Positions 3,802 to 8,989 of a stretch of DNA of 14,354 nucleotides are shown piece after piece. Origin of the DNA: Candidatus Stahliibacteriota bacterium. Lineage in GTDB: Bacteria > Hydrothermota > Tepidihabitantia > SM23-42. The stretch's first letter is position 1; every line of letters begins with the position of its first letter. The notes beneath the pieces were generated by a model. It searched no databases and was not told the DNA's origin. It saw only the letters and a list, made by a program, of their open reading frames with translations. The stretch covers positions 1 to 14,354 of the forward strand of contig DAOVBK010000008.1 of NCBI GenBank assembly GCA_030670605.1. The letters are read 5' to 3'. A program made the position numbers and the translations under genes.

Positions 3802-5649
3802 TCACGCTTTCAATGCATGTTCGGCTTTTTCTTTCCAGGTCCAAGCATCGATAGACACGAAAATATTCATGGTTTCTCTATAGAATTTTGCAGAGCATAC
3901 TACGTCTTTTGTGTGCGCCTCTTCCATTTGCTCGCGGTAGTAGTATGTTTTCCCAATGTTCAATGGCTGCTTCAGTTCTGCATAGATCAAAGAAGCCTTC
4001 TCAAAATGCCTTTCGGATCGGGGAAAATCCTCTCTGCAAGCATGGTAACGACCTAAGAGGAGATTCATCGAAGCTCGATGAGGTTTAGTTTTGACTTCCT
4101 CGGGCAATGCTTCAAGAAACTCAAATCGGTCCTGCGTGTACTTCACGAGGCCGAGACGACTGATATCATTAATAAAGCCAACTATCTCGCCCTCATTGTA
4201 TCCAGTCAGTGACATGAGTATTTGAACATCGAACCTACCCATGACACTTGCAACATCCAACACCGACCGTGCCTCTTTGCTCAAACTGTTGTACTTCCTC
4301 AGTGTGATATCCTCAAGACTCTTTGGCACAATCTCTTTGTCCGGCTCAGTGAACGCCCATGTATCTTCTTCAATAATTAAATATCTCTTGTCATACAGCC
4401 CGCGCATAATTTCTTCGACGAAATAGGGTATTCCACCACTTTCACGAACAACGTAGTCAATGAGCGCGTGTTCAGGTTCCTCACCGATAATCGCCTGTAA
4501 GCCTCTTTCAATGTCGACTCGCGTAAGGGCATTGAGACATATTTCCTTGACATCAACCTCTCGGTTTATCGACAAAAAAAGATTTTTCAGGAATTCAGTC
4601 TCCTCCTCAATGCGATAGATGAATACAAATACTATGGCATACTGATTCAGCGCCCGTATCAAGTATCTCATGATCTCGATTGACTCCTGGTCGATCCACT
4701 GGATATTATCAATGACAATTACTTTCGGTCGATCACCAACCTCAATGACCTTCTTGATTCCCTCGTAGAGACGATACTTGTCCTGCACGAATGAAACACC
4801 TTTTTCAGCAATCTCAACGCCGATCTCGGGAACCAGCTTCCCGATTTCAAGTCTGTAGATAGGTGGAATATCTTCAAACGTCTTTGTACCGAGCTGCTGG
4901 ATTCGGTATTTGATTAATTCGCGTATTGGATAGTATGTAATAGTATCGGCAAGGAACAAACAATCGTTCCAGATTATCTCTCTTCCTTTGATTGTACTCA
5001 ATATTTCTTTGGTCAGGCGTGTCTTGCCAATACCAACATTTCCCTTGATAATCGCAACACCGAACCCTTCTTTGCTATCTGCCAAGAAATGCTTGAGCAA
5101 TTCCTGTTCGTCCCGGCAATTGAGAAAAACAGGGATTGGCAACTCAATTCTTCTCTTTTGCATTGTCCCCAATCGTCCCCGACCGCTTCGTTTCGCATCG
5201 TAGAACACCTGGTCGGCGATACCGAGCAATCGGTCAAAATCATCGGCATCAAGCGGATATGAGGCGACACCGACACTGAAAGAAATGTTGATACCACTGA
5301 ATGTTTGTTCTTTGCATTTTTTTAGTATCCGACGGTATATGGCCTCTGCATCCCGCCGTGTCGTATTGGGCATAAAGCAGACAAACTCATCACCACCGTA
5401 CCGTATGACCGCATCTGATTTCCTGAGCTCATCCTGTAGAAATGTACCAAATGCTTTGATAACCTCATCACCCTTGAGGTGACCATGAGTATCGTTTATT
5501 TCTTTGAAGTGATCAATATCAACCATAACCACGGAAAAAGGGATACGTTTTAGAACGAGTTCGCCTGCTACGGCATTTTGTTGTTTTTCTAAATACTTAC
5601 GATTGTAGACACCGGAAAGCTCGTCTTTGTACATCGATGCGTCCGTCAT
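3802..5649 (-). CDS. GGDEF diguanylate cyclase with STAND-type ATPase, TPR region mostly deleted (615 aa)
   Basis: This is a paralog of the 1103-aa protein downstream. It carries GGDEF (85-89), the I-site R76-D79, P-loop GNVGIGKT (203-210) and Walker B VIDNIQWID (312-320). The N-terminal 510 residues run collinear with the larger protein. After FEF (509-511) it jumps almost directly to sequence matching the larger protein's extreme C-terminus: the VKT at 519 corresponds to VKT at 1003, and NLLLGRYH corresponds to NLLSGRYY. About 485 residues of TPR array are therefore missing, leaving only two or three degenerate repeats. The reading frame is open throughout. The ATG at 5649 is preferred over a GTG at 5673 because a near-consensus promoter spans 5656-5684, so the GTG would lie upstream of the transcription start. 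Predicted role: cyclic di-GMP synthesis with altered or lost partner binding. Confidence 0.9.
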   Translation of the reverse strand: MTDASMYKDELSGVYNRKYLEKQQNAVAGELVLKRIPFSVVMVDIDHFKEINDTHGHLKGDEVIKAFGTFLQDELRKSDAVIRYGGDEFVCFMPNTTRRDAEAIYRRILKKCKEQTFSGINISFSVGVASYPLDADDFDRLLGIADQVFYDAKRSGRGRLGTMQKRRIELPIPVFLNCRDEQELLKHFLADSKEGFGVAIIKGNVGIGKTRLTKEILSTIKGREIIWNDCLFLADTITYYPIRELIKYRIQQLGTKTFEDIPPIYRLEIGKLVPEIGVEIAEKGVSFVQDKYRLYEGIKKVIEVGDRPKVIVIDNIQWIDQESIEIMRYLIRALNQYAIVFVFIYRIEEETEFLKNLFLSINREVDVKEICLNALTRVDIERGLQAIIGEEPEHALIDYVVRESGGIPYFVEEIMRGLYDKRYLIIEEDTWAFTEPDKEIVPKSLEDITLRKYNSLSKEARSVLDVASVMGRFDVQILMSLTGYNEGEIVGFINDISRLGLVKYTQDRFEFLEALPEEVKTKPHRASMNLLLGRYHACREDFPRSERHFEKASLIYAELKQPLNIGKTYYYREQMEEAHTKDVVCSAKFYRETMNIFVSIDAWTWKEKAEHALKA

Positions 5650-5655
5650 CTTCGG

Positions 5656-5684
5656 AGTATACTGCCCTAGCACCGCAATGTCAA
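5656..5684 (-). promoter_or_regulatory. Near-consensus sigma-70 promoter of the GGDEF gene pair
   Basis: On the minus strand TTGACA (5684-5679) is followed by 17 bp and TATACT (5661-5656). Only six bases separate the -10 box from the ATG at 5649, so the transcript should begin at the start codon and carry no Shine-Dalgarno leader. This position also settles the start codon of the 615-aa protein. Confidence 0.75.
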
Positions 5685-5787: not shown

Positions 5788-5829
5788 ATCATTTTGTCAT
5801 TTTGTTAATTAACAAAATGACAAAATGAT
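5788..5829. promoter_or_regulatory. Perfect 42-bp palindrome, candidate ArsR operator (site 1)
   Basis: The core is five octamers: TCATTTTG, TCATTTTG, TTAATTAA, CAAAATGA, CAAAATGA, plus one complementary base at each end. It is perfectly self-complementary. It begins 2 bp after the arsR stop codon and lies about 100 bp upstream of the GGDEF promoter. A second copy at 6153-6194 differs at three positions. Four half-sites could seat two winged-helix dimers. It could also form an AT-rich hairpin in arsR mRNA, but no loop or T-run typical of a terminator is present. Confidence 0.7.
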
Positions 5830-5831
5830 AC

Positions 5832-6140
5832 TCACTTCAATCGCTCAATGGTTTTAACAAGACGCTCAAGATCAAACATGACAGGAGCGACCGCATTCGT
5901 CTTGAGCCAGTAAGAACGGGTACGCCAGTACACTTCATAGCGAACAAGGTCCAGGTCCCGCAGTACGCGTAGCGACTGGGAAACCGTCGGTACGCTCACC
6001 CCAAGGAGACGCGCCAACTGTTCTGGTGTTCTTTTTTCGCGTGCGAGAAGATGGACGATTTCATATGCGGTTGGATTACCGAGAGCACGGCAGATGCGTG
6101 ATGCCCGGTAACGAACCTCTGGTATTTTCTTTTTTCCCAT
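5832..6140 (-). CDS. ArsR/SmtB-type winged-helix transcriptional regulator
   Basis: This 102-aa protein is about the size of one ArsR-family winged helix-turn-helix domain. The ALGNPTAYEIVHLLA helix is followed by an HTH reading TPEQLARLLGVSVPTVSQSL (residues about 38-57), with the recognition helix near VPTVSQSLRVL, and then by a wing around RYEVYWRTRSYWL. The classical metal-binding ELCVCD motif is absent, and the only cysteine (CRAL) is in the first helix. It is therefore probably not an arsenic or metal sensor. The gene is bracketed by twin palindromes, and its own promoter overlaps the upstream one, which suggests autorepression. Neighbours are the GGDEF-ATPase genes (same strand, downstream) and a divergent secreted-protein gene, which are the plausible targets. 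The ATG lies 5 bp after the -10 box, and no Shine-Dalgarno sequence is seen. The signal it senses is unknown. Confidence 0.85.
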   Translation of the reverse strand: MGKKKIPEVRYRASRICRALGNPTAYEIVHLLAREKRTPEQLARLLGVSVPTVSQSLRVLRDLDLVRYEVYWRTRSYWLKTNAVAPVMFDLERLVKTIERLK

Positions 6141-6145
6141 ACCAC

Positions 6146-6173
6146 ATCATACATCATTTTATCATTTTGTCAA
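6146..6173 (-). promoter_or_regulatory. arsR promoter embedded in the palindrome
   Basis: On the minus strand TTGACA (6173-6168) is followed by 16 bp and TATGAT (6151-6146). Five bases later comes the arsR ATG at 6140, so the message is predicted to be leaderless. The -35 box lies at the centre of the 6153-6194 palindrome, so any protein bound there would block RNA polymerase. Confidence 0.7.
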
Positions 6174-6194
6174 TTAACAAAATGATAAAATGAT
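6153..6194. promoter_or_regulatory. 42-bp near-perfect palindrome, candidate ArsR operator (site 2)
   Basis: The octamers are TCATTTTA, TCATTTTG, TCAATTAA, CAAAATGA, TAAAATGA. All positions are self-complementary except one pair near the centre. Compared with site 1 at 5788-5829, only three of 42 positions differ. The unpaired C at 6171 turns TTAACA of site 1 into the consensus -35 TTGACA on the minus strand. The site lies between arsR and the divergent promoter at 6244-6272. Confidence 0.75.
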
Positions 6195-6243: not shown

Positions 6244-6272
6244 TTGACACGTTTTGCTCTCGCACGTATAAT
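6244..6272 (+). promoter_or_regulatory. Perfect consensus sigma-70 promoter of the secreted-protein gene
   Basis: TTGACA (6244-6249), a 17-bp spacer and TATAAT (6267-6272) match the consensus exactly. A strong ribosome binding site GGAGGT (6278-6283) follows, 5 bp before the ATG at 6289. The predicted transcription start falls at about 6279, so the 5' leader is only around 10 bases and may clip the Shine-Dalgarno sequence. Confidence 0.8.
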
Positions 6273-6288
6273 TACATGGAGGTAGACA

Positions 6289-7743
6289 ATGTATGTACAA
6301 AAAAGTGCGCTCTGTTTAATTTCCTGCTGCATCGTTGCCTTAGCCCAGTACCAATGCTATCCCGTAACATCGGTCAACTCCTCTGATGCGACAGCATTCA
6401 GCAACAGCCACAAGCTCGCTACGCGAAACGGTGAGCTGCCGAGTGATACCATCCACCTCGTGTATCATGATAACGATAGTATCTACTACATACGCTCCAC
6501 AGACCAAGGGGTGTCATGGCAAACGTCGTATTCCCTGTCCTCAGGTCTCTATCCTGCGCTTGACATTTACCATAATGAAATCCGGCATGTTGCCTGGCAG
6601 CAGTTTGATCCGTCTGACAGCACCTATGATGTCTACTATGACTGCCTTGATGATTGGGCACCCCCGGTAAACATTAGCGAATCATCCAACAACTCAACGT
6701 ATCCTGATGTGGTTGCTGATGAACATCTGACTGCGCACATTGTGTGGGTCGAGGAAATCGGAACCCAGTGCTATATCTACTACCGCACATGCATCGGCGC
6801 CATGCCTGGTGACACAATGCGTATCAGCGATTTCGGTTCTACAGAAGCCACCTATTCCTACCCATCGATTTCACTGTTCAGCCCAAATAATCGCATCTAT
6901 GTTTGTTGGGATTGCCTTGATACAGACTGTTATTCACCCTATCAAATACATGTACGTTACAAAGAAGGCACAACATGGTCTCCTGTGACGGCGTACGCAC
7001 ACTACTTACCGCTACGGCATTCGTCTCTTGACTTTGGCCATGGGGGCATGGAAACGTTGTCGTTCTGCTACGAGGACAGCACCTCTGGCAATCTGGATGC
7101 TACGTTTGTCGGAGGAAATGGTGGTGGTTATGCAACAGACGGCAATTCATCGTATCCCGTGCTCACAACAGTCGGCGATGCCTGGTCCTACTTGTACTGG
7201 CAAGAGGATTCATCAGGGTACATAGACATCTGTTACCACCTTTACTATTTCATGTCCGGCTGGACTCAAGGAACAGTACGATCGGTTTTTGGCATTGGGG
7301 AACCAGTCCGATACCCTAATAGCTGCGGTGCGTATGTCGTGTGGACACAAGGGCATGCAACACCGTATACTATATACTTTGCGGATTTTGGCTACCCGAT
7401 TAGTGTAGAAGAATCACAGACCCCGGTGTGTGCATTTTCAATCGATGCTCAGCCTAATCCCTTCAAAGACAAGACAGATATCAGCTTTGGAGCAGACAGT
7501 AGACAGAACAAAGCTCCGTCCCCATGGGACGAGAGTCCTCGTCCCCCAGACGGGACAGTCAGTATACACATTTACGACGTTGCTGGTCAGCTGGTCAAAC
7601 AATTCAGCCATTCAACCATCCAACAATCCAACCACGTAACCTGGGATGGCAAGGATGACGCAGGCAATGATGTGCCTGCAGGCATTTACTATTGTGTACT
7701 TGGCGAATACAATGCGGTTACAAAGGTGACAAAACTGAGGTAA
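6289..7743 (+). CDS. Secreted beta-propeller-like protein with C-terminal FlgD-Ig/type IX-like sorting domain
   Basis: The 484-aa product begins with a hydrophobic signal peptide (about residues 1-19, ending ALA before Q20), so export is predicted. Residues 50-370 contain repeated beta-strand blades of the form IHLVY...YYIRS and HIVWVEE...IYYRT. One clear Asp-box, S70-T-D-Q-G-V-S-W77, is typical of BNR/sialidase-like propellers, but no catalytic set is visible. Residues about 385-484 form the sorting-type domain: QPNPF, then VSIHIYDVAGQLV, VTWDGKDDAGNDVPAGIYY and a final VTKLR. This domain usually marks cargo for surface anchoring or a type IX-like secretion route. It is unusually Cys-rich for its class. 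Two repeat-derived inserts fall in the C-terminal domain (7526-7545 and 7611-7634). The stop lies 2 bp from the convergent osmC-like gene. The substrate or role is unknown. Confidence 0.85.
   Translation: MYVQKSALCLISCCIVALAQYQCYPVTSVNSSDATAFSNSHKLATRNGELPSDTIHLVYHDNDSIYYIRSTDQGVSWQTSYSLSSGLYPALDIYHNEIRHVAWQQFDPSDSTYDVYYDCLDDWAPPVNISESSNNSTYPDVVADEHLTAHIVWVEEIGTQCYIYYRTCIGAMPGDTMRISDFGSTEATYSYPSISLFSPNNRIYVCWDCLDTDCYSPYQIHVRYKEGTTWSPVTAYAHYLPLRHSSLDFGHGGMETLSFCYEDSTSGNLDATFVGGNGGGYATDGNSSYPVLTTVGDAWSYLYWQEDSSGYIDICYHLYYFMSGWTQGTVRSVFGIGEPVRYPNSCGAYVVWTQGHATPYTIYFADFGYPISVEESQTPVCAFSIDAQPNPFKDKTDISFGADSRQNKAPSPWDESPRPPDGTVSIHIYDVAGQLVKQFSHSTIQQSNHVTWDGKDDAGNDVPAGIYYCVLGEYNAVTKVTKLR
7526..7545. 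repeat. Hairpin-forming palindrome inside the coding sequence
   Basis: GGGACGAG (7526-7533) and CTCGTCCC (7538-7545) form a perfect 8-bp stem around AGTC. The flanks add further GTCCC and GGGAC words (7518-7522 and 7552-7556), allowing alternative pairings. It encodes part of SPWDESPRPP, a proline-rich stretch between two predicted strands of the sorting domain where homologous domains usually have a short turn. It resembles an in-frame palindromic element. Confidence 0.6.
7611..7634. repeat. Octamer repeat inside coding sequence, related to 226-274
   Basis: Three octamers TTCAACCA, TCCAACAA and TCCAACCA lie in tandem and encode STIQQSN in the sorting domain. They match TTCAACTA, TCCAACCA, TGCAACCA at 240-263 in 21 of 24 positions. 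The protein stretch falls in the normally variable loop before VTWDG. Confidence 0.6.
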
Positions 7744-8164: not shown

Positions 8165-8653
8165 CTATTCTTTCACGAGCGAGTCAATGAGTGTATTAAG
8201 TCCCTGTTCTAATTCAGGCGCAAAGCCCAATTGCGTCTTTCTGACCACACCGTTCTTATCGAGAATGTACATCTTGGGAATTGCCGATATTTCGTACATT
8301 CTCAAAAGCTCTTTGGTTCCAAGAAGAATAGGGTAGGGAACATTGTGTTCGTCCCGGTACCTAGTCAGCACTGACTTCTCTTCAGTACTGATGCCGAGCA
8401 CAGTGAAACCCTGATCATGGTATTTGTTGTACAATTTGGCGAATACTGGAATACTGTTTCTGCATGGTGGGCACCATGTTGCCCAGAAATCAATAAGCAC
8501 AACCTTTCCCTTAAGCTTGGATAATGTAATCTCCTCGCCATCAATCGATGTAAGTGTGAAATCCTTATCAATTTGTGCTGTTTGCACACCGTTAGCAGAG
8601 CACACGAGCACAGATATAAGGGCTGCCAAACCGACGAGCAGTAGCTTTTTCAC
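8165..8653 (-). CDS. Exported TlpA/ResA-like thioredoxin-fold protein
   Basis: The 162-aa protein starts with KK and a hydrophobic segment (about residues 4-18), followed by SANG: a signal peptide or N-terminal anchor. The VLVC sequence does not fit a lipobox because valine precedes the cysteine. The mature domain is an AhpC/TSA-Redoxin type thioredoxin fold (FTLTSIDGEEITLSKLKGK) with active site W60-C-P-P-C64 and cis-proline P126 in SAIPKMYI. Members of this family act outside the cytoplasmic membrane, reducing disulfides, for example during cytochrome c maturation. No cytochrome genes are seen here, so the partner is unknown. The start is GTG at 8653, with GGAGG 4 bases upstream. It lies 15 bp after the trxA-like gene. 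Confidence 0.88.
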   Translation of the reverse strand: MKKLLLVGLAALISVLVCSANGVQTAQIDKDFTLTSIDGEEITLSKLKGKVVLIDFWATWCPPCRNSIPVFAKLYNKYHDQGFTVLGISTEEKSVLTRYRDEHNVPYPILLGTKELLRMYEISAIPKMYILDKNGVVRKTQLGFAPELEQGLNTLIDSLVKE

Positions 8654-8668
8654 AGTTCCTCCGTTGTT

Positions 8669-8989
8669 TTATTTCACATATTTCTGTATTTTTTGGATAA
8701 TATGGTCTTTTGGCACGGCTCCAATTATCCTCTCTATTTCTTTACCATTCTGAAAGAGCAACAGCGTCGGGATGTTCTGAATGCTAAATTCATTTGCGGT
8801 CTTTATCTCATTATCGACATTGACCTTGCCGATCTGGATCTTACCATCATATTCCTTGCTGATCTCTTCCAATACTGGAGACACGATTGAACAGGGAGCA
8901 CACCAAATCGCCCAAAAATCAACAAGATATGGAATGTCAGACTTTTCAACCTCTTGATGGAAGTCCGTATCAGTCAACTCTTTCACCAT
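8669..8989 (-). CDS. trxA: Thioredoxin (WCAPC active site)
   Basis: At 106 aa this is a standard single-domain cytoplasmic thioredoxin. The redox site is W29-C-A-P-C33 in place of the usual WCGPC, with DFWA just before it and the cis-proline P74 in NIPTLLLFQNGKE. Ala at the second position of the CxxC loop occurs in some thioredoxins and may shift the redox potential. It has no signal peptide. The ATG at 8989 is preceded by AGGAGG at a 5-base spacing. It is the first gene of trxA-tlpA-osmC, with a 15-bp gap to the next gene. A hairpin and a parS-like site fill the 76 bp between it and the upstream beta-barrel gene. No good promoter was found, so read-through from that gene is possible. Confidence 0.93.
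   Translation of the reverse strand: MVKELTDTDFHQEVEKSDIPYLVDFWAIWCAPCSIVSPVLEEISKEYDGKIQIGKVNVDNEIKTANEFSIQNIPTLLLFQNGKEIERIIGAVPKDHIIQKIQKYVK

Follow-up and report, generated by a model that had tools for sequence, protein, structure and literature searches.

Twin octamer palindromes around an ArsR-type gene of WOR-3 bacteria suggest an autoregulated repressor with a second putative operator after its stop codon

Repressors of the ArsR/SmtB type form a large bacterial family, and the motifs used for their metal sites are of an alpha3N CxC type and an alpha5 Asp/His type. The O3 operator of the lac system is located at the 3' end of lacI. REP elements with their RAYT gene (the REPtron) are a case of a small gene flanked by palindromes that are also present elsewhere. 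ArsR/SmtB repressors such as AzuR are described with 12-2-12 operators upstream of or within their target genes (PMC8790569). LacI limits its own gene, with O3 acting as a roadblock to transcription together with looping to O1 (PMC3711431).

The locus described here lies in a window of 14,354 nucleotides, the whole stretch of DNA that was analysed. Its ArsR protein shares the winged-helix fold with SmtB, CzrA and AzuR, and its putative operator overlaps a promoter, as that of AzuR does (PMC8790569). Unlike these proteins, it has no metal-site Cys/His cluster, and a second operator copy follows just after the arsR stop codon. The predicted operator is a dyad of about 40 bp with an identity of 0.624 at a lag of 8 bp, in contrast to a 12-2-12 repeat (PMC8790569). 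It may resemble O3, through which LacI limits its own gene by blocking transcription (PMC3711431). However, LacI belongs to another family and has its own tetramer, whereas in the present locus the two sites lie on either side of arsR, the upstream one over the arsR promoter. Of the published mechanisms that we found, lac O3 comes closest to a post-stop operator. A literature search, with most subscription papers outside its reach, returned no paper on twin palindromes of a WOR-3 ArsR gene. The ArsR subfamily described here has a far larger, 8-bp-periodic putative operator, which is repeated behind the stop codon. It occurs in WOR-3, and single contigs from other lineages have it too. As the octamers differ between paralogs, the subfamily offers dozens of natural protein-operator pairs on which a recognition code and the function of post-stop operators could be tested directly.

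The arsR gene and its two palindromes

The arsR-type gene occupies positions 5832 to 6140 on the minus strand and encodes a winged-helix protein of 102 amino acids, as judged from its open reading frame, its match to PF01022 and its predicted structure. The PF01022 score of 49.3 bits (cut-off 22) places the protein in the ArsR/SmtB winged-helix fold; with the NCBIfam profile HTH_metalloreg (NF033788) it reaches 52.3 bits, just under the curated cut-off of 55, and falls outside that family. A profile search at E 0.001 returned HTH families only, and no Y1/HUH transposase family. The AlphaFold model (mean pLDDT 94.7) consists of helices at residues 8–20, 23–32, 39–46, 50–62 and 84–101 and strands at 66–71 and 74–79, and neither the model nor the profile search gave any domain besides the ArsR fold. 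The top-ranked PDB match of the model is CzrA (1r1u, TM 0.80), SmtB is also among the top structural matches, and SmtB 1r22 matches the protein at E 1.8e-6. The motif YRxS...CRxLGNPTAY marks this lineage-specific subfamily.

A residue count gives a single cysteine (C17) and a single histidine. An ArsR/SmtB metal site, of either the alpha3N CxC or the alpha5 Asp/His type, is absent from the 102 residues; other metal chemistries are possible. The lone conserved Cys17, together with neighbouring genes for a nitroreductase, a flavodoxin-like reductase and a cysteine-synthase-like protein, hints at redox or thiols as the ligand. Thioredoxin-like and thioredoxin genes are found near an OsmC-like gene at 8165–8989 of the window, and with Cys17 they hint at a redox theme.

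An earlier note on this DNA had described a perfect 42-bp palindrome after arsR and a second copy, differing at three positions, before it, and comparison of the arms agrees. Site 1 (5788–5829), the putative post-stop operator, consists of octamer-containing inverted arms of 21 nucleotides that are 100% complementary with no loop. Site 2 (6153–6194), the putative upstream operator over the arsR promoter, has arms that are 95% complementary, and the two sites are 93% alike, with differences at positions 9 (G/A), 19 (T/C) and 34 (C/T). The change at positions 9 and 34 is compensatory and keeps the palindromy, since the two are dyad partners. The difference at position 19 breaks the dyad of site 2 and, on the arsR strand, creates TTGACA. 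The distances given in the note, 2 bp from the arsR stop to site 1 and 12 bp from site 2 to the arsR start, match the minus-strand frame. A 24-bp core with at most three mismatches has four strand matches in the window versus none in any of 200 dinucleotide shuffles.

In a promoter scan, this TTGACA is the arsR -35 box (6168–6173, minus strand), which is followed after a spacer of 16 nucleotides by the -10 box TATGAT (6146–6151, minus strand), with 11 of 12 consensus matches. Site 2 holds the -35 box and spacer of this predicted promoter. The -10 box ends 5 nucleotides before the ATG, and the arsR mRNA is apparently leaderless. The same scan of the window gave no promoter-like and no terminator-like match at site 1.

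The neighbouring genes bear on the suggestion that the two sites control arsR, the GGDEF genes and a divergent secreted gene together. The next co-directional gene (3802–5673, minus strand; GGDEF and AAA domains by open reading frame and profile search) is preceded by its own promoter-like sequence, at 5684–5656. This sequence runs across the called start, and the gene therefore probably begins further in. The divergent gene (6289–7743, plus strand) encodes a secreted protein with a FlgD-like domain and sorting tail (PF13860 above and PF18962 below the cut-off). Control of this gene by arsR is plausible because a similar divergent secreted-protein gene recurs beside several orthologs in the window's clade. 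However, it also has a promoter-like sequence of its own (TTGACA-17-TATAAT, 12/12; 6244–6272, plus strand), which lies outside site 2 and about 50 bp beyond it.

Flanking palindromes of arsR relatives

Judged by its closest named matches, the source genome belongs with candidate division WOR-3 (Stahlbacteria; Caldifarciminota in NCBI naming). A search at E <= 0.001 found arsR relatives in 41 of the 61 related genomes, the close ones in G000–G027, and a phylum-wide search found a relative at E <= 1e-15 in 34 of 147 genomes. We read 68 arsR loci, seven of which stand outside the 61 loci counted below: L012, where the upstream region is masked; L038, L039, L040, L075 and L076, which are more distant; and L072, where the start is unclear.

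An upstream palindrome with 13 or more of 20 pairs precedes 49 of the 61 relatives versus 16 of 142 control ORFs. The 61 are not independent, since some loci, L021 and L024 among them, are closely related to one another, and the control value is inflated because the controls include neighbours sharing the arsR intergenic region. A post-stop palindrome of the same quality, 10–40 bp after the stop, follows 30 of the 61 relatives versus 6 of 125 controls. A rule based on an AATT centre and similarity gives 36 of 61, and the post-stop copy is absent in 25–31 loci depending on the rule. In 57 loci a palindrome with 13 or more of 20 pairs is centred on AT, mostly AATT, and its letters vary with the arsR branch (TCATTTTG...CAAAATGA, ATTCTGGTAATTACCAGAAT, TTACGACAATTGTCGTAA, AATTAAACAATTGTTTAATT). 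Among the omitted loci, L072 has no palindrome and counts against the layout. L038 has 15 and 13 of 20 pairs; L075 has 15 and 16, with the post-stop centre 62 bp away; L039 has 15 pairs upstream only; L076 has 15 post-stop only; and L040 has neither.

The two flanks of a gene resemble each other. In 36 of the 61 loci their similarity is greater than that reached by any of 21 shuffles, versus 36 of 183 cross-locus comparisons. The same holds for 14 of 21 loci outside the 61 (cross-locus 11 of 63), which comprise more distant subfamilies, two Omnitrophota contigs and one Lentisphaerae contig; L263 was left out of this test, at least 1700 of its 1801 bases being exactly common to L262. The twin-palindrome layout recurs in the Lentisphaerae and both Omnitrophota contigs, in one of the latter weakly; the Omnitrophota locus L170 barely passes the flank test (20/28). 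In the Lentisphaerae genome the palindrome, at up to three mismatches, is found only at both arsR flanks. No arsR relative was confirmed in viral contigs.

The proposal that the palindromes are twin operators of the regulator is supported by these comparisons: putative operators lie on both sides of orthologs and paralogs, vary in step with them, and occur in 0 of 33 same-class genomes without a close relative. As far as sequence comparison can establish it, the operator layout of this predicted ArsR-fold autorepressor subfamily is real, well conserved and unusual.

Some individual loci depart from the common arrangement. L189, on a WOR-3 SM23_42 contig, has an arsR of the Lys51 kind (see below) with a stop after 35 codons, and a promoter-like sequence is still in front. 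L264 and L265 (G066:C102 and G066:C171) are short ArsR genes with a palindrome of 20 of 20 pairs 24–25 bp after the stop and only 11 and 12 pairs upstream; the letters of the post-stop palindrome differ between the two.

Predicted operator recognition and proposed mechanism

Across 72 operators, with both copies counted for some genes, identity is 0.624 at lag 8 versus 0.15–0.34 at lags 1–7 and 9–15. The operator of about 40 bp consists of five 8-bp registers, with the dyad running through the middle register. From this arrangement we infer that each octamer is a half-site and that an operator would take more than one dimer. Upstream and post-stop copies of the same gene have a mean identity of 0.82 versus 0.60 between genes, a difference equalled in 0 of 2000 permutations; this test used the 31 of the 61 loci where an AATT-centred dyad with 11 or more of 20 pairs is present on each side of the gene.

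The letters also follow the protein. Among 39 non-redundant of 57 loci, proteins with Lys51, which are confined to one clade, go with operators that have G in 14 of 14 half-sites at position 7 and likewise at position 15, and Pro51 proteins go with A at positions 7 (29 of 30) and 15 (30 of 30). The effect of residue 51 reaches z 11.4 and 9.1 at these two positions, and positions 8–14 have z <= 1.5. A similar response at two positions spaced by 8 bp, 7 and 15, is expected if one monomer reads each octamer. Residue 51 is located at the start of the predicted recognition helix (50–62, AlphaFold). However, D64 and I16, which are outside the contact set, match this signal at both operator positions. 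Taken together, contact columns score higher (p 0.004); their enrichment among the top eight is not significant (p 0.083), and the top two columns, I6 and D64, fall outside the contact set. As a predictor of the operator, the recognition helix does not surpass the remaining residues (Spearman 0.386 vs 0.396; partial 0.228 vs 0.247).

Forty-four of 48 upstream copies overlap promoter-like sequence with at least 10 of 12 consensus bases, and the -10 box is 5–8 nucleotides from the start in 41 of the 48. In contrast, the 27 post-stop copies tested have at most 9 of 12 consensus bases on either strand, where shuffles reach 10. The next gene is co-directional in 30 of 35 loci with a post-stop copy versus 13 of 22 without (Fisher p 0.03), where L018, L046 and L053, with at least 13 pairs and a centre other than AATT, are scored as without; moving these three gives 32 of 38 versus 11 of 19 (p 0.049). 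Four loci with the next gene more than 500 bp away were left out of this comparison, the neighbour of L021 was set by hand as cysK, after L024, and some short downstream ORFs may be spurious. In five loci with a post-stop copy the next gene is on the opposite strand.

One clade repeatedly has an rnfA-like gene followed by arsR, a post-stop palindrome and a nitroreductase gene (for example L058, L063, L067, L068 and L071, with families checked for L067 only). At the clade loci scored with a post-stop copy, the palindrome centre lies 34–117 bp before the nitroreductase start. In G023, an operator and promoter are found in front of a cysteine-synthase-like gene of the PALP family with no arsR between. 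The higher frequency of the post-stop copy with a co-directional next gene and the recurring neighbours favour read-through or next-gene control.

We consider it probable that arsR encodes an autoregulated repressor of ArsR/SmtB fold situated between two copies of its own operator, with promoter occlusion upstream and a roadblock or pairing at the post-stop copy. The protein, though devoid of the metal site, likely binds its own sites. On the upstream copy, which covers the -35 box and spacer, it would occlude RNA polymerase at the arsR promoter, and in this way arsR is proposed to repress itself. The post-stop site is probably a roadblock or a loop partner, of which we rank the roadblock first and the loop second. 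Protein bound there would stop polymerase that has crossed arsR, and/or would pair with its upstream counterpart, which might shut off arsR and transcription running on into the next gene at the same time. The few additional intergenic copies could constitute a small regulon or a series of boundaries marked by bound protein.

A broader reading, which we offer as speculation and think unlikely in full, is that this ArsR-fold class reads DNA in 8-bp steps, one monomer per octamer, and forms arrays on sites of at least 40 bp. Post-stop sites, both its own and those of dispersed genes, would then be protein-gated transcription boundaries, and the paralog-specific octamers a recognition code that could yield orthogonal protein-gated terminators.

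The strongest alternative, suggested already in the earlier note, is that protein on both operators closes a DNA loop of gene length (365 bp between centres in the window) and locks polymerase out of or inside arsR. The two large sites are near-identical, their centre-to-centre spacing is fairly constant (359–391 bp in 20 loci with both palindromes), and an operator of several half-sites could carry more than one dimer. However, these spacings span many helical phases, with no common phase among the 20 loci, the post-stop copy is missing in the 25–31 loci noted above, and the protein has no domain beyond the ArsR fold. The spacing neither requires nor precludes a loop, and a mechanism that depends on looping is possible but somewhat less than an even prospect.

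Action at the RNA level, with site 1 as a 3' hairpin that terminates or stabilises the transcript, is improbable. The perfect palindrome does fold well (-21.9 kcal/mol, z -6.9), but the upstream copy folds equally well (-23.3) and is equally palindromic, and as it precedes the -10 box in the window, the RNA of arsR itself should not contain it. Upstream and post-stop copies match in relatives, and no terminator was called at site 1. Moreover, 29 of 36 post-stop sites have at most three T in a row downstream, with 4–6 in the other seven. An intrinsic terminator was therefore set aside, given an equally palindromic copy before the -10 box and mostly short T-runs.

Dispersed palindromes and less probable alternatives

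The source genome (1.75 Mb, 294 contigs, 79% complete) holds the palindrome at six places with up to three mismatches, versus none for a reversed-pattern control. Two are in the window; the other four are on other contigs, away from arsR and between larger reading frames. The first adjoins genes for a KNTase_C-domain protein and a sodium:solute symporter; the others adjoin a DUF5916 gene, genes for a flavodoxin-like reductase and a DUF3795 protein, and genes for GNAT and C25 peptidase proteins. The earlier note had taken wide occurrence without an arsR neighbour as evidence against its reading. Such copies make up four of the six here, although a few extra sites also fit a small regulon.

Among the 61 related genomes, 24 have palindromes of the TCATTTTG type, versus none for the reversed control. 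These 24 all belong to the 28 genomes that have close arsR relatives (G000–G027); of the 33 same-class genomes without a close relative, none has such a palindrome. K-type palindromes occur in 21 of the 61, again all among G000–G027, and in 0 of the 33 others. G011, G014, G015 and G017 have 3, 5, 3 and 4 TCATTTTG-type palindromes. The closest arsR relatives in these four genomes are paralogs, 43–54% identical, with another octamer at the operators examined (L026, L027, L032 and L033). G008 and G022 have one match each, at three mismatches, and no close cognate arsR. In these six genomes, therefore, some sites lack a visible cognate. G020 has an arsR 68% identical, yet no match to the palindrome pattern.

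We sampled 48 dispersed sites in 44 loci, the four of the source genome and 40 stretches chosen among the matches listed. Ordinary promoter operators were rejected as an explanation of these sites, promoter-like overlap being found at 1 of 48 (L111). In the 27 tandem cases the median distance is 83 to the preceding stop versus 186 to the next start (Wilcoxon p 0.025; relative-position test p 0.064). Tandem sites are nearer the preceding stop than the next start, which is a bias and not proof. Seven further sites are convergent and four divergent.

A few dispersed sites are common to loci within a genus (L110/L113, L135/L139 and L130/L138). The site 3' of the DUF5916 gene is kept in 2 (G000 and G009, of two genera) of the 29 loci with a 3' flank, which come from 25 of 26 genomes searched, with 48 further matches left aside; this one site therefore turns over. 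Some copies in G004 and G027 fall inside longer repeats. G027 also has eight identical 30-bp sites CCGACATTCCGGTAATTACCGGATTGACGG in one orientation on eight contigs, possibly inside a repeated element.

Sites without a close cognate in G011, G014, G015 and G017 could mean that the palindromes serve an unseen DNA-binding protein, or chromosome organisation, with arsR merely nearby; another octamer array, with 106 strand matches, also resembles no arsR operator examined. There is little chance of this, however, as both copies of a gene match while the letters vary between paralogs, promoter overlap is seen in the 44 of 48 upstream copies, and the Lentisphaerae genome has two copies only, both at arsR.

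Movement of palindrome-gene-palindrome as a transferable unit, another suggestion of the earlier note, fares worst and is very improbable, even though four of the six palindromes of the source genome lie without arsR, some dispersed copies in G004 and G027 are in longer repeats, and G019 lacks an arsR where G018, G021, G005 and G016 have one and has a single palindrome there. Dispersed copies would then be traces, as with REP/RAYT, to which the small gene between palindromes that also occur elsewhere bears a likeness. In contrast to REP/RAYT, there is no HUH/Y1 transposase family here, palindrome copies are few, and their letters vary with a DNA-binding regulator. The gene keeps its neighbours across genera, as in the rnfA-like gene, arsR and nitroreductase order, its protein matches HTH families only, the Lentisphaerae genome has just the two flanking copies, and viral contigs gave no confirmed relative.

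The one comparison of an empty with a filled locus is that of G019, where the palindrome is of a different octamer type from the operators of the relatives, and no clean junction of the flanks is seen. The gene after the arsR paralog in G018, G021, G005 and G016 is presumably DUF554-like. The other-octamer palindrome at this arsR-less locus (G019:C52, L142, around 2078) may reflect rewiring to another regulator.

The other octamer array (ACTATNCA/ACYATNCA, with inverted arms) is present in the window at 184–284 and 7598–7641. The pattern has 56 forward and 50 reverse matches in the source genome (control 0), often as minus/plus pairs about 20–60 bp apart, as in a dispersed REP-like octamer palindrome. 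Its copy at 7598–7641 falls within the reading frame of the secreted protein.
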